From positions 1 through 28,126 of IMG/VR virus record IMGVR_UViG_3300027736_000194: a DNA stretch of 28,126 nt; one strand, given 5' to 3'. Made by a program: the position numbers and the translations under genes. Of this stretch, positions 10,300-28,126 are shown in pieces. The stretch comes from a virus. Each line of letters opens with the position of its first letter. Position 1 is the stretch's first letter. The notes beneath the pieces are model-generated. The model had not been told where the DNA came from, searched no databases, and worked only from the letters and a program-made list of their open reading frames with translations.

Positions 10300-13200
10300 T
10301 TACAGATCGGTGATGTCGATGATTTCGCCATAACTACCAGCTTTCGCGGTGATGGCGGAAGACGAAACTTCGGACGCGAAGCGCAGGCTCAAAACACCGG
10401 TAGCGGATAGGGTGATTGTGCCCTCGACGATTGCGTAGTTTCCGGCTGTCAAACTGCTGGCGTTCGCGGATGCTGGTGAATCGTACGCTTGAAGGTTGTT
10501 CAGGGTTTCCGTGGTGGCATCAAGACTATATCTGGAAACGTACTGCAAAGCGGATGTGGAAGGACCGTTCAGGCTCCAGCGCGATCCGGTGGTGGTTGCT
10601 GCCGAGGTGTAATTGACGAAGAATTTGAACCGGTAGGTTCGACCTGATGTGACGTTGAATGACATCCCGGTCACAGTGGCCATGGTGTTAGCTGACGCGT
10701 TGTTGTTGACCACATCAGCCGCGAGCTTAATCCGGCGAACACCAAGATTGTAATTCGCATCCGCCCCCACAGCGACAACGCCCGCTCCAATTACCGTGCC
10801 ATCCAGACCGTTTGAGGTTCGATCGGTAATCTCACCCGCTTGACCACTGGCCAGATCCGGGTCTAGAAACCAACCAATCCGCTTTACCGTGTTGGACGCA
10901 TCAAGCAGCCCGGCGCCGGTGGTAGTAGCTACGAACTCAGTGCCAACGTTGGAATTGGCGGCGCCAGCCGTGGTAAAATTTGAAGTAGCCTGGGCAACAA
11001 TTCGATAGCGTTTGCCTACAGTCAGGGTGCCTGAATTCAAGATTGTAGTTGACCCCCAAACATCAGCCGCACCAACACCGCGGTTGAGCGCGGCAACCTC
11101 GGTTGCGCTGAGCGCTCTGTTGGCAACTCGAAAAGACGTGATGGTAGAAGCCCATGGCTGAGACCCAAGGAACACTCCGATATTGTAACGATCCGTCGTG
11201 AGACTGTCTCCCCAAGTCGGCGCAGTGCCGTTTAGACCCTCGGCGTACGTGAGGGCAGTTCCGTTCACGTACATTGCCAGATTTGTGCCAGAACGAGTAA
11301 TCGTCAGATTTACCGGAACACCAGCATAAGAACTCAGCTGAGCGGCCGTGACGTTGGCCACGCGTACATCTCCGCTGGTTGATCCATATCGTAAAAATTG
11401 AAGGGTTCCGTCAGTCGCCACATACAATCCGCAACCCAGCACAGCGATGGATCCGTTTGCTGTGGTCATGGTAAAAATGCCCGATTGTGTCGTTGGGTTT
11501 ACGGAAGGATAGCGAACGCGAACTTGGATTGTGAATGGATCGGTTCCCAATTGCTGAGACAGTCCTCCAATATAGCTGCTTGTTTGAACGCCGTCCCATG
11601 AGTACCCGCGATCTTGCTGATCAATTTGAGCTGTTGAAACCGTTGCAACTGGTGGGGCTATTCCAACTTGCTTGGTCCATCGAACCCCATTTCCAACCAA
11701 GGCACCGTAATTGTAATTAGGAGTCCGGTCGTAGACGGATGTTCCGGAATTACCAGTCAGATCCAAGTCAACAACCCAGCCAATTCGAGTGAGGGTGTTT
11801 GACGCGTCGAGAAGTCCGGAACCAGTTCCAGTGGCAATAAACTCGGTTCCAACACTGTTATTCGCCGCACCGACTGATGTGAAAGAAGATGAGGCCCAGG
11901 ATGAAATTCGATATCGCCAGCCAATTGTCAGAAGTCCACTGGATTGGTTTGTATTGCTACCCCACATGTCGCTGGGCTTTGGTCCAGATGACAAAGCGGA
12001 AACGTCCGCGGCGGATAACTCGCGGTTTGCCACCCTGAACTCGTGAATCAACGAGGGCCAAGGTGCGCCAATGCCTGCCCCAAGATTCCATTTGGTGGTA
12101 GGCATTGACGCAGCCCAAGTAGGGGCTGCGCCGGCAGTCGCCGTAGTGTACTCCATTTCACCGCCGTTTAGATAAATCTTTAGCGTGGTGCTGCTCCGGG
12201 TAAATGCAAAGTCAACCACCTGACCCATTAAAGGAACATACTTTTCAGGGGGGATCACTGCTACAAATCGGTCGGATTGAGTGCCGGCGTAGAAGATGAA
12301 ATAGATGTTCTTGTCGCTTGACCAATAGCAGGCAATGCCAGGAAAAGACGATCCGCCAGCGGATGAGCCAAGACTGAACATTGCTGATGTCGCTGCGGGT
12401 GGTGTAATCGGGAGCCTGACGCGAGTGTGAATGGTGAATGGATCCGTATTAATAGCGGCCATCGTACCGCTTGCGTATGATCCTGAAATCGCCGTGTCGA
12501 ACGTGAGTCCAGAATCGGAATCCGGGCGAGACTGCGTAGTCTTCCACCCTGTAGACGTGTCCTGATTTGCAAGCAAGTACAGGAACGTGTTGTCCGAAAT
12601 GACGCCGGATCCAGCCGTTGCCTTGATTCCAATTTCACCGTCCGCCGAAGGGTTTGTGTATGACGAGTTGAAGAAATTGTGGTTTACCTGAACGTGCTCT
12701 GGATTGTAGTTGGCGAATGCGATTGGAGTGCCACCAAGCGAGCTGGCTGCAATTTCCAGTGACGGTTTGTTCTGCCCCGAGAAAGCAAATCGGTTGTTTA
12801 TGAATCGAACATCATAAGTAGCCCCAACCTTGACAAGATTGTACTGACGAAGTGTGGAAGACCCTGACAAAGTGCTAAAAAATTCCACTGTTGAGAACGC
12901 GGAAGACCACCCATGAAACCAGCAGTCTTCGAACGCGATGTTGTTGACCTTTCGTCCAGCGTTCGGGATCTGGCGCGTATCCACATAGACCCCATCACCC
13001 AGCGAGAACACCACCTCACACTTTCTAAAGGTAATTCCATTGTGCACGTCTTCAGTGCTAGAGGTTGACGTTTCTTGATTGACAACAGATACGGCTGGCC
13101 AGCCTCCTCCGACGTTATTCGTTGCATCGCGCTTCCCGCAAAATCGCACGGATACATTGTCAAAAAGCGACTCTCTAACGCTGGTGTTCAGATAAATTCC

Positions 13201-13878
13201 AGACCGCTGAAACCTCCAGATGTACACATCCCGAACAACAAAGTAGTCACAATGGTTCAGGTAAATAGCCCCCAAATCAGATATGCGATTGTTCCCCTCA
13301 AGGCTTAAGTTGGTGATTAGTGACGGTGCCAGATTGAATTCCGTATCAACTTGGGCGCCTGACAATTCATCAAACGATATCATCCAGCCCGTGGCGCCGG
13401 ACAAGGCTTTTAGACAGGTGTTCCACGATTGATGACCAGAAAGGGTGACGCCTCGCTTAATGCTGAGATTGGAAATCGTGTTGGTTCCGGACAGCTGAAC
13501 CTTTCCATAAACAACCGTGTCAATTGCACTTTGAATTGCCAAAGTTGAATCCGCACTTGGGATTCCAATTGCCCCAAACCAAGCGGCTTCCACGTACCCA
13601 ACAGGATGGATTCTCTTCACTCGACCAACGCCGCTGAGAGGCGCAAACACGGTGCCTAAGTTGGTGGCGGTGGTTGATGTGGCATCGTAAAAAAACTCCC
13701 CTCCACCGCCATCATTGATGGCGTTTCTGCCAAGGGTTCTCCAGGTGCCCAGTTTCGATTGAGGGCGGGCCAGCAAAATGTCTAGCGTATCAACCACCTT
13801 GGCTGTTTCTTGGCCGTTCAAATGCAAAACAGCCGTCACGGTTACAAAAACCAAAACGATGAGTCGTAGATATCGCAT
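10300..13878 (-). CDS. Tailspike: pectate-lyase-like beta-helix with two LamG-like modules and a signal-peptide-like N-terminus
   Basis: ATG 13878 lies one base after the upstream stop and gives 1192 residues; a longer reading would add 54 residues overlapping the upstream gene. Residues 1-25 have a basic start, a 15-residue hydrophobic core (LIVLVFVTVTAVLHL) and a polar end, like a secretion signal. Residues 50-70 contain DGGGGEFFYD, and 99-122 contain WFGAIG followed by STLAIQSAID, the entry to a pectate-lyase-3 type right-handed beta-helix running to about 430. Two homologous beta-sandwich units follow, near 465-730 and 766-1031. Each contains DPFTI, a MYVNG or IYLNG strand and FRVANRxLSxxxVxAL, as in LamG/concanavalin folds. 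Each is followed by a G-x-RYRI element. A C-terminal beta-sandwich ends at IIDITDL. It probably binds or degrades host surface polysaccharide. Confidence 0.85.
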   Translation of the reverse strand: MRYLRLIVLVFVTVTAVLHLNGQETAKVVDTLDILLARPQSKLGTWRTLGRNAINDGGGGEFFYDATSTTATNLGTVFAPLSGVGRVKRIHPVGYVEAAWFGAIGIPSADSTLAIQSAIDTVVYGKVQLSGTNTISNLSIKRGVTLSGHQSWNTCLKALSGATGWMISFDELSGAQVDTEFNLAPSLITNLSLEGNNRISDLGAIYLNHCDYFVVRDVYIWRFQRSGIYLNTSVRESLFDNVSVRFCGKRDATNNVGGGWPAVSVVNQETSTSSTEDVHNGITFRKCEVVFSLGDGVYVDTRQIPNAGRKVNNIAFEDCWFHGWSSAFSTVEFFSTLSGSSTLRQYNLVKVGATYDVRFINNRFAFSGQNKPSLEIAASSLGGTPIAFANYNPEHVQVNHNFFNSSYTNPSADGEIGIKATAGSGVISDNTFLYLLANQDTSTGWKTTQSRPDSDSGLTFDTAISGSYASGTMAAINTDPFTIHTRVRLPITPPAATSAMFSLGSSAGGSSFPGIACYWSSDKNIYFIFYAGTQSDRFVAVIPPEKYVPLMGQVVDFAFTRSSTTLKIYLNGGEMEYTTATAGAAPTWAASMPTTKWNLGAGIGAPWPSLIHEFRVANRELSAADVSALSSGPKPSDMWGSNTNQSSGLLTIGWRYRISSWASSSFTSVGAANNSVGTEFIATGTGSGLLDASNTLTRIGWVVDLDLTGNSGTSVYDRTPNYNYGALVGNGVRWTKQVGIAPPVATVSTAQIDQQDRGYSWDGVQTSSYIGGLSQQLGTDPFTIQVRVRYPSVNPTTQSGIFTMTTANGSIAVLGCGLYVATDGTLQFLRYGSTSGDVRVANVTAAQLSSYAGVPVNLTITRSGTNLAMYVNGTALTYAEGLNGTAPTWGDSLTTDRYNIGVFLGSQPWASTITSFRVANRALSATEVAALNRGVGAADVWGSTTILNSGTLTVGKRYRIVAQATSNFTTAGAANSNVGTEFVATTTGAGLLDASNTVKRIGWFLDPDLASGQAGEITDRTSNGLDGTVIGAGVVAVGADANYNLGVRRIKLAADVVNNNASANTMATVTGMSFNVTSGRTYRFKFFVNYTSAATTTGSRWSLNGPSTSALQYVSRYSLDATTETLNNLQAYDSPASANASSLTAGNYAIVEGTITLSATGVLSLRFASEVSSSAITAKAGSYGEIIDITDL
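10787..11597 (-). repeat. Tailspike LamG-like tandem module, unit 2
   Basis: The unit runs from just ahead of DPFTIQVRV to GTVIGAGV. It shares FRVANR, the GxRYRI element and the GLLDASNT/IGW segment with unit 1. Boundaries are approximate. Confidence 0.7.
11690..12500 (-). repeat. Tailspike LamG-like tandem module, unit 1
   Basis: The unit runs from just ahead of DPFTIHTRV to YGALVGNGV. It is homologous to the second unit at a 903-base (301-residue) offset. Boundaries are approximate. Confidence 0.7.
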
Positions 13879-13879
13879 G

Positions 13880-14887
13880 TCAGGAAATCCGCACATAGCG
13901 CCCTGGGTTTCCGGGTAAAATATTGTCGGGCTGCAAGAAATCGATCGCGTCATCCGCGGTGGAATCCGCAGATTTGAAGCGAAACCAACCTTCTGCTCCG
14001 TCACCTTCAGCCGTGGCATAAAGCAGGTAAAACATCGCATTGTTTGAATACGTGGTGTTTTCCCTCAAACTCGCTATTCCGGGATATCCATTAAGTCCGG
14101 ATGCAGATGTCACGATACTCGGCGCCGTGGTAGTTGCATCGTCTCCAGTGACTGCTGTGTAAGCTGAAGATGATGAGTAAATGTCCCCAGTAAATCGATG
14201 TGGACGCCGCATCAGCACCAAGAACGGAGAATTGGACGCGTTCGAGGTTCTCGGCTGAATGCCATCCGGAGTCGTGTCGAATGGGATTTCGGCCGCTCCA
14301 ACATTGATGGTCGGGTCGGTTTGATGCAGTGACACTGCATCCCCGATCGGCGTCTTTCCGCTCTGGGTCCATTCGATCGTTGGAGCAAATTCATTCAAAG
14401 CCCCCCAATAGCTGGAACTGGTCGGCAAATTGCCAGTGCTGGCGGTGTGGCACTGGTAATACAGGCCCGTGGTCGAATACTTAACCTGCGAGCCTCTGGC
14501 GTAAGCAGTCGTGTTGCTGTATTCGTTGCCGTCGTAGGAGCCTCGGGCAAACGCCCAGTACTGAAGATTGATTGTCCACGCGGTTCCGGATTGAGTGGCT
14601 GGCTCGTTTCCAATGGTTCCCTGAATGGCTTGGTAGTAATCGTCGGAACCAATGTGATACACGACATCGCCTGCGCTGTACGTCGTCCCTGAATTGTAGA
14701 CCGGGGCGTAGCGCCGTTGTTCCGTCAGTTTAAGGTCTGACCAATGGGCGGCTTTCCAGATTTCTTCGAGTGCTTCGCTGATGCAGTCCCGAATGCTGGC
14801 GAACTCGGTGCCGTCCAATAAGTCAGGATCCAGTCCGAGCTGACTGGCAACTCGTCGCTGCAAGGTTGAATATGGAACGCGCCTCAT
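13880..14887 (-). CDS. Head-to-tail adaptor-like protein with two carbohydrate-binding-like repeats
   Basis: A 335-residue protein. Residues 1-60 are helical (YSTLQRRVASQLGL, then a long helix ending in WSDLKLTEQRRY). This resembles the N-terminal domain of short-tailed phage adaptor proteins, where a WP/WS-x-L motif precedes a strand. Two repeats follow at about 64-104 and 121-161. Each has a Y..GD/GSxV strand, a YYQ pair, a G-N-x-P turn and a closing Trp, the pattern of CBM5/12-type chitin-binding modules. The rest is beta-rich and ends in a GNPGRYVRIS strand. The dual layout suggests a connector that also carries surface-exposed sugar-binding lobes. The gene is 3 bases from its upstream neighbour and 1 base from the tailspike start. 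The adaptor role is an inference from N-terminal similarity and gene order. Confidence 0.7.
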   Translation of the reverse strand: MRRVPYSTLQRRVASQLGLDPDLLDGTEFASIRDCISEALEEIWKAAHWSDLKLTEQRRYAPVYNSGTTYSAGDVVYHIGSDDYYQAIQGTIGNEPATQSGTAWTINLQYWAFARGSYDGNEYSNTTAYARGSQVKYSTTGLYYQCHTASTGNLPTSSSYWGALNEFAPTIEWTQSGKTPIGDAVSLHQTDPTINVGAAEIPFDTTPDGIQPRTSNASNSPFLVLMRRPHRFTGDIYSSSSAYTAVTGDDATTTAPSIVTSASGLNGYPGIASLRENTTYSNNAMFYLLYATAEGDGAEGWFRFKSADSTADDAIDFLQPDNILPGNPGRYVRIS

Positions 14888-16444: not shown

Positions 16445-17482
16445 TTAGCTCGTCGGTTGGTAACGGCCTTCACCCTTGGGGTTGAGGCACTCCAACATGG
16501 CAAGGGTTTCGCAAAACGCTTCGTAGCTTCCGCCTTCGTACGGCTTCCGAATCCATGTTGGCTTTCCGCTCTTGCTCTTGGTGGCCTCGCTGCCGGGGCC
16601 CCATCGCAATTGCCACATGTTCTGGTGCAGGAAGTATGTGCAATACGCCTTCTCGACCGCGCCGCCATTCAGCGCCACGTTGTACCAACTGATGCCGGGA
16701 AGATCGATCGGACCAAAGTCGGACATGTACCGCTCAAAGATGCGGTCGATCGTCTTTCCGTTCTTGCTGTACGTAATACCCGTTGCGACTGCGGTGCCGC
16801 CGGGAACCAGCGTGGCCTGCGGGTTGAACAACGGAATGTTGTTGAACGCGCGCTTGGCTTTCTGGCCAGGGAACGCCGTGATTGGATTCTTGCTCTTGGT
16901 CACTTGGCCCATGGATTCCAAGATGTCCAAGATGGTGTTCTCGGTGAGGGAAGCGCTGGCCGTAGTGCTGATGGAGGCGGTCGGCGGTCGGAAATCGACC
17001 GGCACCGGGTATAGCGATTGCGCCGAGTTGCTGATCCACGAAGCCACGCCACGGGTCTTGTAAGCGGTGGTGGAGCTGCCTTCGACGTGATCCGTGCCTT
17101 CAAGAAAAGCGACTTCGATATCGCGGGCCAGCTCTTTGGTGCGTTTCACCATGTCGCGGCCCAGTTCGTCCTCGATGCCGGCGATGTTGGACACATCTTG
17201 GTGCAGTCGGGTGACGCTGGAGGTCTTGGTGAAGTACTGGATGAGCGCGATCAGTTTGCCGCGGCCGTCACCGGCGGAGGCAAATCCGCTGACGGGGCGA
17301 CCGTCAACGTGCGCGTTGAGAACCGGATCTTCGTACTTCTCAGCTTGGTAGTTGTGAAGGACGTTTACCGGCTTGTCCCCGACTGGAAGCCAGTCGAGGA
17401 AGGGTGTTTCCATCATCTCGACGTTCGTGATGATGTCTGCCCAATCTTCCTGATTACCGACGATCTGCGAATATTGCAGCAT
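16445..17482 (-). CDS. Major capsid protein, SU10/DUF5309-type
   Basis: The 345-residue product starts MLQYSQIVGNQEDWADIITNVEMMETPFLDW in outline. The DWADIITNVxxxETPFL segment at about 13-30 is the hallmark opening of SU10-type HK97-fold capsid proteins. Further family-like stretches are GKLIALIQYFTKTSSVTRLHQDVSNIAG, the ELGRDMVKRTKELARDIEVAFLEGTD helix (spine-helix candidate) and the GYRTRGVASWI-like AYKTRGVASWI. Near the end, YMSDFGPIDLPG and a run of Trp/Tyr-rich strands close the fold. Length is normal for the family. It lies 24 bases after the scaffold-like gene, the usual arrangement for capsid assembly. No maturation-protease gene is seen nearby. Confidence 0.88.
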   Translation of the reverse strand: MLQYSQIVGNQEDWADIITNVEMMETPFLDWLPVGDKPVNVLHNYQAEKYEDPVLNAHVDGRPVSGFASAGDGRGKLIALIQYFTKTSSVTRLHQDVSNIAGIEDELGRDMVKRTKELARDIEVAFLEGTDHVEGSSTTAYKTRGVASWISNSAQSLYPVPVDFRPPTASISTTASASLTENTILDILESMGQVTKSKNPITAFPGQKAKRAFNNIPLFNPQATLVPGGTAVATGITYSKNGKTIDRIFERYMSDFGPIDLPGISWYNVALNGGAVEKAYCTYFLHQNMWQLRWGPGSEATKSKSGKPTWIRKPYEGGSYEAFCETLAMLECLNPKGEGRYQPTS

Positions 17483-23527: not shown

Positions 23528-23850
23528 GCGATCAGATCGCATGCGGCTTCGAGCTGATTGGATTTGGCTGATTGATCCTGAATCCATTGGGTGACTTCGC
23601 TTGTTTGGTTGGTGGCATAGGCAATGATTCTGTCCTGCTCGGACTGAAGCCTCGGCTTGATCTGTTTCACAAACCACGCGTTGGGAGGTGGCGTCCGCAT
23701 GTATCGATCCATTGCCATTTTGATGATCTGGGCTCGGTTGGCTTTGACCCGTTCTATGACATCCGGTGCAGTGTCAGGTGGCAGCTTCGGCACTGCGGAG
23801 TCTTTGGTGTGTTCGAATCGGATGAGATCGGCTATTTCCCATTCGGTCAT
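23473..23850 (-). CDS. Hypothetical helical protein between helicase and terminase
   Basis: A 125-residue protein coupled by ATGA to the DnaB-like gene. It is mainly helical and charged: MTEWEIADLIRFEHTKDS, then APDVIERVKANRAQIIKMAMDRYMRTPPPNAWF, then a basic-acidic helix QIKPRLQSEQDRIIAYATNQ and a C-terminal HCHRRNPLAFVLSLD. I do not recognise a family. The position at the boundary of replication and packaging suggests a small DNA-metabolism or small-terminase-type role, but no HTH is clear. An AAGG lies about 12 bases ahead of its start. Confidence 0.72.
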   Translation of the reverse strand: MTEWEIADLIRFEHTKDSAVPKLPPDTAPDVIERVKANRAQIIKMAMDRYMRTPPPNAWFVKQIKPRLQSEQDRIIAYATNQTSEVTQWIQDQSAKSNQLEAACDLIAWQHCHRRNPLAFVLSLD

Positions 23851-25490
23851 ATTTCAAGGCCTTCGACGGACTTGGGTTTGTTGGATTCCTTCTTCCCGTA
23901 ATCTTCGCTGTATGCGTCCACGAAACGCGTCGTTCTGCGTTGCAGTACGAGTTCGCATGGGCCTGTGGCGCCATTGCGATTCTTCGCGACGGTCATCTGG
24001 ACAAAGCTCAACTCGCGCTGCCACGAGGCTGGATACTCAACCTTGTTGCCTCCAACTTCCTCTGCGGCCACCAACTTTGGGCCATCGATCCATCCACAAT
24101 CCTTCTCGTTGTCCTTGTTGGGCTTTGGGGCGTCGGCCTCGTGGTACTGAATCCACTTCATGTCATGGTACGATTTCGGATCCAGCTTGGGTGTCCACAG
24201 TAGCCCGATGACATCCGCGTTCTGCGAAATGCGGTCACTCTCGCGGATGTCGCTCATGCGGGGTTCGCGTGGCGTTCGATCCTTCTCGCTGTCGCGATTG
24301 AGCTGTGCGAGTGCGACGACAGAGATGTCCAGATCTTTGGCCGTGCGTTTGATCCAATCGGCAACCTCGGCAACCTCTTCTTCGCGACTGGCTCCGCGGC
24401 GGGTGCCCCTCATGAGTTGAATGTAATCCACAATTGCCAGGCTGATTCCTCGCTCGCGTTTGGCGCGTCGCACGCTGGCGTAGAAGTCCCGTCCGCTGAG
24501 ATCCGTTCGATCGTCGACAAACAGTCGATTCTTGTAGGACGACAATTCGCCGTATCCCTTCAGTAGCTTGGGCTCGTCGCTGGCGCTGATGAATCCATTT
24601 CGGAGTTTGAGGGTATCGACACGAGCGGTCACACCAACAAATCGATTGAGCAGGCTCTGCCGTCCCATTTCAATCGACCAGAATCCAACACCGTGACCGC
24701 AACGGAGCACGTTGACGGCAAGAGTCACTCCAAGGGAAGTCTTGCCCACGCTGGGACGTGCGGCAATGACCACGAGTTCGCCGGGTTGGAGTCCGCACGT
24801 CATGTTGTTGAACATGTGCAGATTGGTGTCGAGGCCAGTAATGCTCTGGCGCCCGTTCTTTCGACGCTCAAGCACCGTGACGAATTCCTTCAGATCGTCC
24901 GTGATCGGCTTCAGCTTGTCTTCAGATCCGGTGTCATTGATCCGCAGCGCCTCTGCCTGCACTTTGGAAACGACCTCGGCAGCGTCCACGGCCGTCTTGG
25001 CTTGCGCTATCGCGTCGTGGCCAAACCGAATGACGTGACGAAGCGTTGCCTTCTCGCAGACGATCTTGACGTAGTAGTCGAGATGCGAAGCTGATGGGAC
25101 TGAGTCGCCAAGATTGCTGAGGTAGACCAAACCACCAACCTGCTCCAATTCCTGATAGTCTTTCAGGTTGCTCTGCAATGTCAGAAGGTTGATTGGAATC
25201 TGCTGTTCCCACATCGATCGCAATCGAGCCCACAGCATCTTGTGCCGGAGGTCATAAAACGCGGTGTCCTCAAACTTTCCAATCTGCTCAGCAGCGGCAT
25301 CGATGGCGGTCGATGGTTCCAATATGCAGCATCCAAGCACACCTTGTTCTGCTTCGATAGAATGCGGTGGGAGTTCAGGCTCAGGCGTCGGATTGTGACG
25401 ATGTCGGCGCCTTTGTGGTGCCTGGTGGGTTTGCTCATCCGGCAGTTCTGATGAGGCGGGGAGCGAATCGAATGGGATGTCGTCAATCAT
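23847..25490 (-). CDS. dnaB: Replicative DNA helicase, DnaB family
   Basis: A 547-residue DnaB-type hexameric helicase. After a disordered, Pro/His-rich start, residues 42-150 form the N-terminal helical domain (SIEAEQGVLGCCIL, the classic start, then FYDLRHKMLW). The RecA-like core carries Walker A ARPSVGKTS at 244-252, the SIEMGRQSLLNR element at 272-283, Walker B LAIVDYIQLM at 351-360 and the LAQLNRDSEKD segment that precedes the arginine region. An insertion rich in Asp/Lys/Gly sits between QNADVIGLLW and SFVQMTVAKNR, longer than in typical DnaB. It unwinds DNA at the fork and probably works with the SSB and initiator-like protein upstream. A GGAGG lies 8 bases before ATG 25490. No primase is visible beside it. 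Confidence 0.93.
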   Translation of the reverse strand: MIDDIPFDSLPASSELPDEQTHQAPQRRRHRHNPTPEPELPPHSIEAEQGVLGCCILEPSTAIDAAAEQIGKFEDTAFYDLRHKMLWARLRSMWEQQIPINLLTLQSNLKDYQELEQVGGLVYLSNLGDSVPSASHLDYYVKIVCEKATLRHVIRFGHDAIAQAKTAVDAAEVVSKVQAEALRINDTGSEDKLKPITDDLKEFVTVLERRKNGRQSITGLDTNLHMFNNMTCGLQPGELVVIAARPSVGKTSLGVTLAVNVLRCGHGVGFWSIEMGRQSLLNRFVGVTARVDTLKLRNGFISASDEPKLLKGYGELSSYKNRLFVDDRTDLSGRDFYASVRRAKRERGISLAIVDYIQLMRGTRRGASREEEVAEVADWIKRTAKDLDISVVALAQLNRDSEKDRTPREPRMSDIRESDRISQNADVIGLLWTPKLDPKSYHDMKWIQYHEADAPKPNKDNEKDCGWIDGPKLVAAEEVGGNKVEYPASWQRELSFVQMTVAKNRNGATGPCELVLQRRTTRFVDAYSEDYGKKESNKPKSVEGLEI

Positions 25491-25690: not shown

Positions 25691-25983
25691 TTAACCACCT
25701 CCCATGGAGCCCCGTACCCTTGTTTCCCAATCAATCTTCCATCGTCCAATAGGAGGGTGGTTTTGTACGGAAGAATTCCATCGCTTGAGCACAAGTATCC
25801 TCGGCACTCCACAACGTCGCGCACAGCGTCCAACAATACGCCTTGGGGGTCGTAGTCGCTGGTAAGAGCCCATCGGTCAGTGTCCGGAATCCGCTTCAGC
25901 AATGCCTGCCTGAACTGATCGCGCAATTCATCCACCTCGAATCGTTCTGCCCACCAGTTGGCGGCTTTGTCCTTTATGCTCAT
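25687..25983 (-). CDS. Hypothetical replication-region protein
   Basis: A 98-residue protein, ATGA-coupled at both ends. It begins MSIKDKAANWWAERFEVDELR, an amphipathic Trp-rich helix, continues with a second helix FRQALLKRI, then a short segment with DPQGVLLDAVRDVVECRGYLCSSDGILPYKTTLLLDDGRLIG, and ends in a basic strand pair. The composition resembles a small globular domain with a helix-rich half and a beta hairpin. No family is recognised. It has no clear ribosome binding site of its own and probably depends on the SSB gene for translation. Confidence 0.72.
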   Translation of the reverse strand: MSIKDKAANWWAERFEVDELRDQFRQALLKRIPDTDRWALTSDYDPQGVLLDAVRDVVECRGYLCSSDGILPYKTTLLLDDGRLIGKQGYGAPWEVVK

Positions 25984-26363
25984 GCAAATGGTACGTTCGG
26001 GGTTTGATTGTTCTGAGGAGGGTCGATTGGATCACGCTTCGGTCCGACAAAGTGCCAGTGCTGAACCCGGATTTTGGTTTTTGATTTTTTGGCGCCCGTC
26101 TCCTTGTCTGCCCAGGTGTCCGTGATGAGGCGGCCCTCGACGAGTGCGGGCGTGCCTTTGCGATGGAATTGCGCGAAGCTCTTAGCCAGCGCACCCCACA
26201 TCGTGATGCCGACGAATGCGGTCTCCTCTCTTTGCTCGCCAGAGTCCGTGGTGAATTTGTGCGTGTTCGCCAGAGTGGCATTGAGCACGGCAATGTTCGC
26301 CGCGGTGTAGGTGATTTCCGGGTCTCTCGTCAGGTTGCCCTGGAACTGGGTCGAGTTGATCAT
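25980..26363 (-). CDS. ssb: Single-stranded DNA-binding protein
   Basis: A 127-residue OB-fold SSB. MINSTQFQGNLTRDPEITYTAANIAVLNATLA in outline gives the first strands (usual pattern xNxxxLxGxLxxDPExx), followed by REETAFVGITMWGALAKSFAQFHRKGTPALVEGRL, the typical WGxxA.....KG....V.GRL core. A closing strand with TKIRVQHWHFV completes the barrel. The C-terminus is short and ends NVPFA, a remnant of the xxPF tip without its acidic run. It protects single strands during replication and is coupled to a HTH regulator upstream by ATGA. A GAAGGAGG lies about 6 bases before ATG 26363, the best Shine-Dalgarno sequence in the region. Confidence 0.9.
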   Translation of the reverse strand: MINSTQFQGNLTRDPEITYTAANIAVLNATLANTHKFTTDSGEQREETAFVGITMWGALAKSFAQFHRKGTPALVEGRLITDTWADKETGAKKSKTKIRVQHWHFVGPKRDPIDPPQNNQTPNVPFA

Positions 26364-26635
26364 TTTGCCTCCTTCTCGATGCCCAGCATTGCGTCAGCGC
26401 TCCACCCTGTGACCGCGCAAATTTTTGCGATAGTGTCGAAGCGTGGAATCCTGCGTCCGCACTCGTAATCGCTGATCATGGATGGGGTTGTACCGCTGAT
26501 CTTTGCGAGTCCGTACTGAGTGAGACCTGATGTCTCTCGCAGAGACTGAAATCGTTTGGCGATTTCCGCGAAGTCCACCTTCAATGGTCTCTTCCGGGGA
26601 ATGGTCATGTTGGGGCTTTGGGGTGTATTTTCCAT
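26360..26635 (-). CDS. XRE-family helix-turn-helix regulator
   Basis: A 91-residue protein. After a basic, flexible first 20 residues, residues 21-80 fit the lambda-repressor/XRE domain: FAEIAKRFQSLRETSGLTQYGLAKISGTTPSMISDYECGRRIPRFDTIAKICAVTG in outline, with the recognition helix at about 50-57. It is short, with no protease or dimerisation domain, so a Cro-like or antirepressor-type role fits better than a full CI repressor. The start may alternatively be ATG 26608. The gene lies 9 bases after the initiator-like gene stops and overlaps the SSB gene by ATGA. A perfect palindrome at 27614-27630 is a plausible operator, as yet untested. Confidence 0.82.
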   Translation of the reverse strand: MENTPQSPNMTIPRKRPLKVDFAEIAKRFQSLRETSGLTQYGLAKISGTTPSMISDYECGRRIPRFDTIAKICAVTGWSADAMLGIEKEAK

Positions 26636-26644
26636 AAGTGTTGA

Positions 26645-27601
26645 TCAAACGGCAGAAGGTTGCGCATGCATTGAGCGTTTAAGCTCAGCAAGCTCGTCGA
26701 CTAATTTTTGGAAATTGGGAAACTCGGCCTGCTTCCTTGCGACCGATCCGACACCATTGTCCGGATTGCCCGGGTGGTTCTGAAGTGCTTCTTCCAGCTG
26801 TCGGACTCGCTGGTATGCGGGCGGTGAATTTGGAGTTCCGCTCGGCGTGCTGGTGCCGTTTCGAGCAGTGCTACGTCGAGCAACCCAAGCGGCCGTAAAT
26901 CGGCGTGTGATGTCGGACTTCCAATCCCTCGGAAATGGCTTGGTATCGCCGCGGCGCCACGCAATCCAATCGAGAATCCACGCCTCTGGAATTCCTGCCG
27001 GTATGCCTCTTGTGTGATCGCCTGGCCATGTCGATGTGAACGCCAGAATCGTCTCATCGCTCGGAATTTCAATGCCAAATCCAGCAGTACTCGTTTGGGG
27101 TATGGGTGGAACTTCATCTGCTGGTGGTGCCCCCTTCCATTCCATTATATTCTCTTCTCTTCTCTTCTCTTCTCTTCCGCATATGCCCAATTCTGAAGTC
27201 GCTATTAGCGGGATTTCGTTTCCGCTATTAGCGGGATTTCCTGTCTGGCATTGGCTGATTGTGTTGGGGTTGGGTTGTCCCCAGCGCTTTTCTGCACCTC
27301 GCGAACCGCGCGCTCTTTTGTCCTGAACCTCAGCTTCTTTTGCCTTTGGATAGAACTCCACCAATAGGTCTTCGCCGACCCATTTCCAGAGCGGGCAGGT
27401 TGACGCCAACTGCTCCAGGTTGACGCGGAGTACGATCATGATCTTGTTGGCAGACCACGATTTAACCGAAGGGATCCGCCCGCCATTTTCCGTCGAGCAG
27501 CAATAGCGCATCAGCTTAAGCCAGACACCATTCTGCTCGTCCGTGGCATCGAGAAACGCTTCGTGCTCCAGTTGCGCGGTGGGGATGTTGATATAGGTCA
27601 T
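26645..27601 (-). CDS. Replication-initiator-like protein carrying origin-like repeats inside its gene
   Basis: A 318-residue protein. The N-terminal 110 residues (LEHEAFLDATDEQNGVWLKLMRYCC, then GRIPSVKSWSANKIMIVL) resemble the winged-helix domains at the start of phage replication initiators and DUF1376-like proteins, where W.KL..YC and G.I... are common. Residues 111-200 form a low-complexity linker. The C-terminal third is helical (AWILDWIAWRRGDTKPFPRDWKSDI and a coiled-coil QLEEAL segment), a possible helicase-loading part. The linker is encoded over two 18-base iterons and a pentanucleotide tract. Placement beside ssb and dnaB supports an initiation role. The ATG at 27601 follows a region without Shine-Dalgarno sequence. 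Initiator function is inferred from layout and position. Confidence 0.72.
   Translation of the reverse strand: MTYINIPTAQLEHEAFLDATDEQNGVWLKLMRYCCSTENGGRIPSVKSWSANKIMIVLRVNLEQLASTCPLWKWVGEDLLVEFYPKAKEAEVQDKRARGSRGAEKRWGQPNPNTISQCQTGNPANSGNEIPLIATSELGICGREEKRREENIMEWKGAPPADEVPPIPQTSTAGFGIEIPSDETILAFTSTWPGDHTRGIPAGIPEAWILDWIAWRRGDTKPFPRDWKSDITRRFTAAWVARRSTARNGTSTPSGTPNSPPAYQRVRQLEEALQNHPGNPDNGVGSVARKQAEFPNFQKLVDELAELKRSMHAQPSAV
27151..27177. repeat. Pentanucleotide tandem repeat (TCTCT, about 5.4 copies)
   Basis: Five perfect TCTCT units plus two bases on the plus strand, coding for an Arg/Glu/Lys run on the minus strand. Unit length is not a multiple of three, so each gained or lost copy would shift the reading frame of the initiator-like gene. 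Strand asymmetry (all purine on one strand) also fits a melting or unwinding element. Confidence 0.9.
27200..27217. repeat. Iteron-like repeat 1 with palindromic core
   Basis: CGCTATTAGCGGGATTTC, with an 11-base palindrome CGCTATTAGCG at its start. It is identical over all 18 bases to the copy at 27223-27240; the two are 23 bases apart centre to centre. Confidence 0.9.
27223..27240. repeat. Iteron-like repeat 2 with palindromic core
   Basis: The second identical 18-base copy, after a 5-base spacer. The two copies fall in different reading frames of the initiator-like gene and encode different residues, so the repetition is selected at DNA level rather than by protein sequence. Confidence 0.9.
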
Positions 27602-28039: not shown

Positions 28040-28126
28040 GCGGCGCGCAGAAGCTCCAGCAGTTTTTCGGATTGTCTGATGATCGCTGCTTGCTCGGCGG
28101 CGGCGTAGGCGGCGGCGGCGGCGTAG
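28036..28126 (-). CDS. C-terminal fragment of an Ala-rich protein (N-terminus beyond window)
   Basis: Only 29 codons and the TGA are present, in frame up to the right edge. The end is an Ala/Tyr-rich helix (YAAAAAYAAAEQAA) followed by IIRQSEKLLELLRAA. The stop overlaps the next ATG as ATGA, so it belongs to the same operon. A GCC/GCG-rich run encodes the poly-Ala stretch. Nothing can be said about function. Confidence 0.7.
   Translation of the reverse strand, partial: YAAAAAYAAAEQAAIIRQSEKLLELLRAA

Follow-up and report, generated by a model that had tools for sequence, protein, structure and literature searches.

A candidate replication origin of lambda-type layout within the initiator-like gene of a phage family

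Where does the phage represented by the 28,126-nt stretch of viral DNA analysed here (the window) begin to replicate its genome, and does a pair of repeats buried within one of its genes mark the place? The initial annotation drew attention to two identical 18-base repeats and a strand-asymmetric tract inside an open reading frame resembling a replication initiator, and compared them with the lambda origin in gene O. On comparison of sequences and predicted structures, we consider the site to be, at a probability of about 0.85, a phage replication origin located inside the gene for its own initiator, working in the manner of lambda but with an initiator family unrelated to it in sequence. On the coding strand, the N-terminal domain is followed by two iterons, 21 bases, the purine tract and the C-terminal part (Table 1), the repeated candidate initiator sites lying between the N- and C-terminal coding parts of the gene.

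Table 1. Features of the origin candidate and its neighbourhood (window coordinates)
Feature	Position	Strand	Basis or remarks
Initiator-like gene, 318 aa, holds the origin candidate	27601..26645 (26645..27601)	-	ORF; N-terminal domain homology
N-terminal winged-helix domain, aa 1-108, presumed iteron binder	27278..27601	-	AlphaFold2 and conserved family domain
Iteron 1, GAAATCCCGCTAATAGCG on the coding strand, palindromic core	27223..27240	-	gene nt 362-379
Iteron 2, identical to iteron 1 (GAAATCCCGCTAATAGCG), other frame	27200..27217	-	gene nt 385-402
Homopurine tract, 29 nt, GAAGA repeats, presumed DNA-unwinding element	27150..27178	-	gene nt 424-452; longest R/Y run, period-5 array
C-free stretch (coding strand), 49 nt, contains the purine tract	27130..27178	-	longest C-free or G-free run of the genome contig
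Helical C-terminal part, about aa 181-312, presumed helicase contact (inferred)	26666..27061	-	AlphaFold2
Cro/CI-type HTH protein	26360..26635	-	PF01381 3.2e-10, phrog_8
ssb, single-strand DNA-binding protein	25980..26363	-	PF00436 8.1e-24
DnaB-type replicative helicase	23847..25490	-	PF03796 4.8e-62, PF00772 1.8e-22

The window is identical over positions 1-28117 to contig IMGVR_UViG_3300010885_057888 (G001; 41,484 bp), whose ends share 123 identical bp; this contig therefore probably represents the whole genome, circularly mapping and about 41,361 bp long, and the window a portion of it. Over its 41 kb the cumulative GC skew stays between -137 and 217 and shows no clear minimum; a curve this flat carries no weight for or against an origin at this site. 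The initiator-like gene had been placed beside ssb and dnaB; both do belong to the same cluster downstream, with the gene of the Cro/CI-type HTH protein preceding ssb and two small ORFs separating ssb from dnaB. No P-type loader was recognised among the neighbouring ORFs scanned. Elsewhere on the minus strand, the ORF at 10300-14040 encodes a protein of 1246 aa in which Laminin_G_3 matches two stretches, and that at 16445-17482 a major capsid protein of SU10 type. A tandem array of GGCGGCGTA type occupies window positions 28095-28126, runs on in G001 at 40857-40990 upstream of a 138-aa ORF, and has many exact copies in that contig. A terminase search for closer relatives of the phage returned the same contig only, and among named phages the terminases found were distant (4 records, below 60% identity).

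On the plus strand the repeat reads CGCTATTAGCGGGATTTC, and its copies at 27200-27217 and 27223-27240 are identical and, as originally described, in different reading frames. The perfect 11-base palindromic core reported for each is also present (CGCTA-T-TAGCG, a single central base flanked by arms of 5 bp); at one copy (27222-27234) the arms reach 6 bp, and the perfect dyad thus spans 11-13 bp of the 18-bp iterons. The quoted separation of 23 bases holds as a start-to-start distance, which places the copies in different frames; 5 bases lie between them. Repetition of the protein had been excluded as their cause, and this conclusion stood: in 500 synonymous-codon shuffles of the gene, which preserve the encoded protein, the out-of-frame repeat score averaged 6.3, against 18 in the real sequence (p=0.002), and palindrome content was likewise raised (300 such shuffles, p=0.020). 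With up to 3 mismatches allowed, there is no third copy in the 28,126-nt window, no match in 100 dinucleotide shuffles of it, and no site in G001 other than the same two. That contig contains no second site of the origin-candidate kind, and was the only one matched when viral contigs were searched with the 18-mer as a DNA pattern. A phased chain of AAGC or AACC, as found in relatives (see below), was sought in the window gene and rejected, the best chain there being three AATC (p=0.047, weak).

The adjoining pyrimidine/purine tract, first described as 27 bases long and 22 bases away, is present, its length being 29 nt (27150-27178) and its distance from the nearer iteron 21 bases. It is the longest purine or pyrimidine run of the 41,361 bp of G001 (the next has 12 nt), and exceeds the mean of 13.3 nt obtained from 500 synonymous-codon shuffles (p=0.014); as it encodes Arg, Glu and Lys, part of the purine bias is nevertheless codon-driven. 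According to nearest-neighbour energies, the least stable 30-bp segment of the genome contig (27144-27173; 0 of 41,332 less stable) and the least stable 40-bp segment (27138-27177; 0 of 41,322) both overlap this tract, as does the top entry of the 60-bp stability list for the 41,361 bp. Both the 30-bp and the 40-bp segment fall inside the 49-nt C-free stretch, a description that we framed post hoc, after viewing the later loci introduced below. The iterons are adjoined by a strand-asymmetric tract computed to melt easily, GA-rich and not AT-rich. For coding-sense RNA of 27130-27178, the predicted gain of the RNA-DNA hybrid over the DNA duplex is near the best of the genome, being more favourable elsewhere in 45 of 41,322 40-bp and 11 of 41,302 60-bp segments.

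The 318-aa protein gave no Pfam or PHROG match up to E 0.1, and a sequence profile of its N-terminal domain matched no PDB chain up to E 1. By homology it possesses the N-terminal domain of the family described below, in which it is the most divergent row of the alignment and a long branch of the tree; relatives at about 40% to 100% domain identity to it were not found. AlphaFold2 models this domain with pLDDT >=90 at 77 of 112 residues and in a winged-helix-like order of elements (helices 21-37, 51-58 and 62-66, strands 72-75 and 78-81, helix 86-107). The linker behind it is predicted with low confidence (residues 117-122, 126-144 and 146-175; mostly below 50 over 117-175) and covers the codons of the iterons and the tract. 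Since these codons fall into a linker predicted to be disordered, the presence of origin DNA there would cost the protein little.

A tblastn search of 50,697 phage records produced three matches, all of them Akkermansia phages, with 31-34% identity over the first 110-132 residues; longer queries (L040, L014 and L022) found the same three only in this collection. In two of these phages, Chambord and Chantilly, the gene is annotated as hypothetical and directly precedes dnaB. A profile of the domain detected 46 viral loci (G001 among them) and six genome loci, namely two in Akkermansia, one each in Lentisphaerae and Opitutaceae, and two in MAGs labelled Clostridiales and Lachnospiraceae. Of 288 genomes sampled from the phylum to which an Akkermansia genome belongs, at least 12 also gave a match, a lower bound with up to 16 candidates scored per genome. 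We infer that the hosts of the uncultured viral contigs, including that of the window, are Verrucomicrobiota. The set used for further study comprised 53 genes in 35 clusters, the window included, and left out L061 and L062, for which the match gave no clean full-length gene.

Nine residues of the domain are invariant in 27 aligned rows (W27, C35, E38, N39, G41, W49, L71, Y84 and R96). The downstream genes that could be recognised mostly encode DnaB or a DnaC-type ATPase. In 20 of 54 loci dnaB is the next gene, at a distance of up to about 240 nt; in the remaining 34 the flanks retrieved showed no dnaB. Seven downstream ORFs scanned, at other or overlapping loci, encode five IstB/DnaC-type ATPases (L051, L036, L056, L022 and L012), a DnaB (L041) and a MarR-like protein (L025). 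Eleven of the 31 members scanned matched phrog_3926, a replication initiation protein family (E up to 0.1, best 0.0011); the linker plus C-terminal part of L022 and L057 matched the O-like phrog_678, and L040 matched phrog_270.

Relatives, to which the initial annotation had looked for conservation of the repeats, preserve the arrangement rather than the letters: those that keep the gene lack the exact 18-mer, yet most of those studied retain a repeat array and a purine tract in place. The layout of N-terminal domain, phased repeats in several frames and purine tract thus recurs in the family with other sequences, in most of the relatives studied with the repeats at about nt 315-460 and the tract at about nt 415-495. 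In eight loci (L013, L014, L016, L020, L032, L033, L039 and L051) AAGC occurs every 11-12 bp with one gap, and in Chambord and Chantilly AACC is spaced in the same way, with gaps. The repeats of DTMo-2021a are GGAAACCAACGTTGG, 25 bp apart, while L017 and L041 contain palindromes of TGCTTGAAGCA type and of TAGCTCAGCTA, respectively. In 18 of the 35 clusters, phased chains of 5-10 tetramers were longer than synonymous shuffles would give (p<0.01), whereas an equally long N-terminal coding part, the control, did not surpass two tetramers in any cluster. Out-of-frame repeats were significant (p<0.05) in 20 clusters, and palindromic repeat cores went beyond the shuffles in the window, L017, L022, L041 and DTMo-2021a. 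At least one of three repeat tests reached an uncorrected p<0.05 in 32 of 35 clusters, the window included, and none did so in L023, L038 and L040.

The tract is the longest purine or pyrimidine run of its locus in 31 of the 34 other loci, against 0.68 expected from position alone. The exceptions are L023, which has a (GTAATA)n stretch and the least stable 40-bp segment of its locus, L038, with an interrupted tract, and L057, with a 31-nt C-free run at nt 539, outside the interval scanned. Measured against synonymous shuffles, the purine run is significant (p<0.05) in 18 of 35 clusters and not in the other 17. Low stability is less general among relatives than in the window: from 0.0 to 14.0% of the 40-bp segments of a locus are less stable than the tract. 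Searches of genomes later added 15 loci (L069-L083), of which 12 were analysed after exclusion of L071 and L072 (domains 97-98% identical) and of L081 (the contig ends in the gene). Repeats were significant by either test (p<0.05) in 7 of these 12, and the tract was the longest run in 4. For C-free runs the fragments L069 and L083 were also excluded; the run in the tract region was the longest of the locus in 8 of the remaining 10, and over all 44 loci it ranked first in 29 and among the top three in 40.

Closely similar domains may be accompanied by different sites. The N-terminal domains of L017 and of L016 and L020 are nearly identical and their linker arrays differ, L017 having palindromic AAGC/GCTT sites and the other two direct CCCAAGC half-sites, which suggests that the arrangement of sites turns over rapidly. 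Residue 53 of the domain is Q where linkers are rich in AAGC, and R or K in the Akkermansia type. We retain this residue as a lead only: it follows the tree, the AAGC-rich L013, L014, L016, L020, L021 and L032 also have 5-7 AACC each, and there are exceptions in L041 (Q53, TAGC-type sites), L057 (R53, other sites) and the window (K53, another site again).

In one group of relatives, the N-terminal domain, the iterons and the tract travel as one unit, apart from the C-terminal part. The DNA of Chantilly (L007), L056 and L059 is 78-98% identical up to gene nt 480, including 97-98% over nt 421-480, which hold the last sites and the tract; identity breaks just past the tract, and beyond nt 480 it is no higher than expected by chance (about 24-53%, and less still at the extreme end). 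L007 and L056 have C-terminal parts with only a distant resemblance to each other (29% over 45 residues); L059 has one of DTMo type, unlike either, which matches that of L026 at 37% over 128 residues. As domain, sites and tract are shared while the C-terminal parts differ, the three move together. The converse is seen between Chambord and Chantilly, which are 93-100% identical over nt 1-240, 45% at nt 421-480, and 85-100% thereafter.

How close is this organization to that of lambda? The lambda origin is described as combining hyphenated inverted repeats of 18 bp with an AT-rich region of 39 bp (PMC6022878), in which almost all purines are on one strand (PMC5043065), and two iterons plus the AT-rich region are given as the minimal fragment for unwinding in vitro (PMC7466680). 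The annotated 18-bp iterons of lambda (J02459) start at O-gene nt 349, 369, 393 and 416. Used as a positive control, this origin was recovered by the run test and by the out-of-frame repeat test (p=0.002 for the latter), but not by the C-free test, its run being 23 nt with six longer ones in the 7-kb stretch. The resemblance proposed at the outset is borne out in position: in initiator genes of similar size, iterons in different frames cover nt 349-433 in lambda and nt 362-402 in the window, with spacings of 20, 24 and 23 against 23, and are followed by a coding-strand purine run, which in lambda has 18 nt at nt 453 (the longest run of the 7-kb stretch) and in the window 29 nt at nt 424. There are also clear differences. 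The window has two iterons, not four, of another sequence, its tract is GA-rich and not AT-rich, and the phage has its own DnaB, with no P-type loader among the neighbours scanned. No sequence relation between the two initiators was found, in line with the initial impression that the sequences are unrelated: the best BLASTP hit between them has E 0.069 over 38 residues, and neither PF04492 nor an O-like PHROG, both matched by lambda O, is found in the window protein. The similarity would therefore be one of lambda-like working, outside the Phage_rep_O family.

Structural comparison offers leads to other replication systems. The top PDB entries for the N-domain model in Foldseek were 4pt7, 4pql, 5kbj and 4pta (weak, E 0.14-0.66), whose titles speak of an initiator, a DNA binding protein and a Rep-DNA complex, and which we take to be RepA_N plasmid initiator domains. 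A second aligner gave them Z-scores of 3.8-4.2 over 78-79 residues, level with CRP-type winged helices and below one plant NLR row; there was no Pfam RepA_N match in the window protein. In RepA_N plasmids, one account places the Rep boxes centrally in the rep gene, where they are bound by the winged-helix N-domain (pSK41 RepA) and the origin encodes the linker, and gives pPR9 as a case in which N-domain and origin have been swapped together in nature (PMC5703833). The candidate boxes of the window are also in mid-gene. Among the top matches to BFVD predicted structures were DUF1376, Lin1244/Lin1753-like and phage replisome-organizer proteins, with a best E of 1.1e-4 that came from a multi-domain model with low TM-scores; by sequence, the window protein has no Pfam match to them. 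The direct half-sites of relatives, phased 11-12 bp apart, also recall iteron plasmids of the P1, F and RK2 type, whose iterons are described as lying in phase with the helix (PMC5043065); in contrast to these, the window sites lie inside the initiator-like gene, and its protein matches none of their initiator families. Among the literature matches listed, none was concerned, by title or start of abstract, with an origin in these phages.

If the site is an origin, dimers of the gene product would use the N-terminal winged-helix domain to bind the two 18-bp iterons, and the bound protein would bend and strain the DNA so that the adjacent purine-rich, C-free tract opens. The C-terminal part may then load the phage's own DnaB on the strand exposed in this way, and the phage SSB may coat the remainder.

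Could the repeats instead serve a neighbouring regulator? They are palindromic and of operator size, and an HTH_3 protein of Cro/CI type is encoded next door (26360-26635), which might use them to repress, or roadblock, transcription of the replication operon. However, they lie about 360 nt into the gene, away from a promoter, and the purine tract would have no explanation. Moreover, relatives keep repeats and tract with dnaB or a DnaC-type ATPase directly after the gene, so that the HTH neighbour is not constant while the N-domain is; we regard operators as very improbable. Just as little credit is due to an autoregulatory site, at which the initiator would repress its own gene, the origin being elsewhere. 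Such a site calls for the same protein-DNA contact and agrees with the presence of a single site cluster, but leaves unexplained the tract of lowest stability and its recurrence in relatives.

A slightly smaller chance is given to functionless DNA repeats produced by slippage in a low-complexity linker, with a purine tract resulting from Lys, Glu, Arg and Gly codons. The linker is indeed predicted to be disordered, the 12-bp steps of some relatives are in frame, the purine run remains within synonymous shuffles in 17 of 35 clusters, and L070 has neither feature. Yet steps of 11 and 23 bp shift the frame with the motif kept, five members (the window, L017, L022, L041 and DTMo-2021a) have palindromic cores beyond what shuffles give, and order and position are conserved despite differing sequences, the known lambda origin being alike. 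It is hardly credible that the repeats are antisense transcription terminators: both copies were listed as terminator-like on the plus strand, but the region holds 4 such sites against a mean of 4.0 in its shuffles, and the tail is not a T run. An origin within the initiator gene is the reading that we prefer.

A broader picture, rather unlikely in its entirety, would add to this origin that the lambda solution was reached independently, with a fast-changing recognition code, a filament of N-domains and a tract opened with the aid of a transcript. In relatives, N-domains would recognise 4-bp cores (AACC or AAGC) that recur at 11-12 bp along the same side of the helix, and would assemble into a filament instead of isolated dimers; the palindromic 18-mers of the window would be one variant of this. 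The initiator's own transcript would help to open the C-free tract; since purine RNA is predicted to form unusually stable hybrids there, the origin could be activated, or primed, by transcription of the gene in which it lies.

For a phage family to which induced prophages of the gut bacterium Akkermansia muciniphila belong, the site supplies a precisely located origin candidate. In this family, nature has also paired closely similar initiator domains with different site arrays, and co-change of initiator and origin, as well as strand-asymmetric tract opening, may therefore be tested outside Escherichia coli.

Among the later loci, L070 (G003:C39:82746-83039) lies in an Akkermansia genome, where it is the second copy of the domain, divergent in sequence, and its gene contains neither repeats nor tract. 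L078 (G010:C25), the one later locus that has the domain of the window as its best match (40% over 85 residues), contains an array of ATGCAAATGC and a TTAAAG-rich C-free tract.
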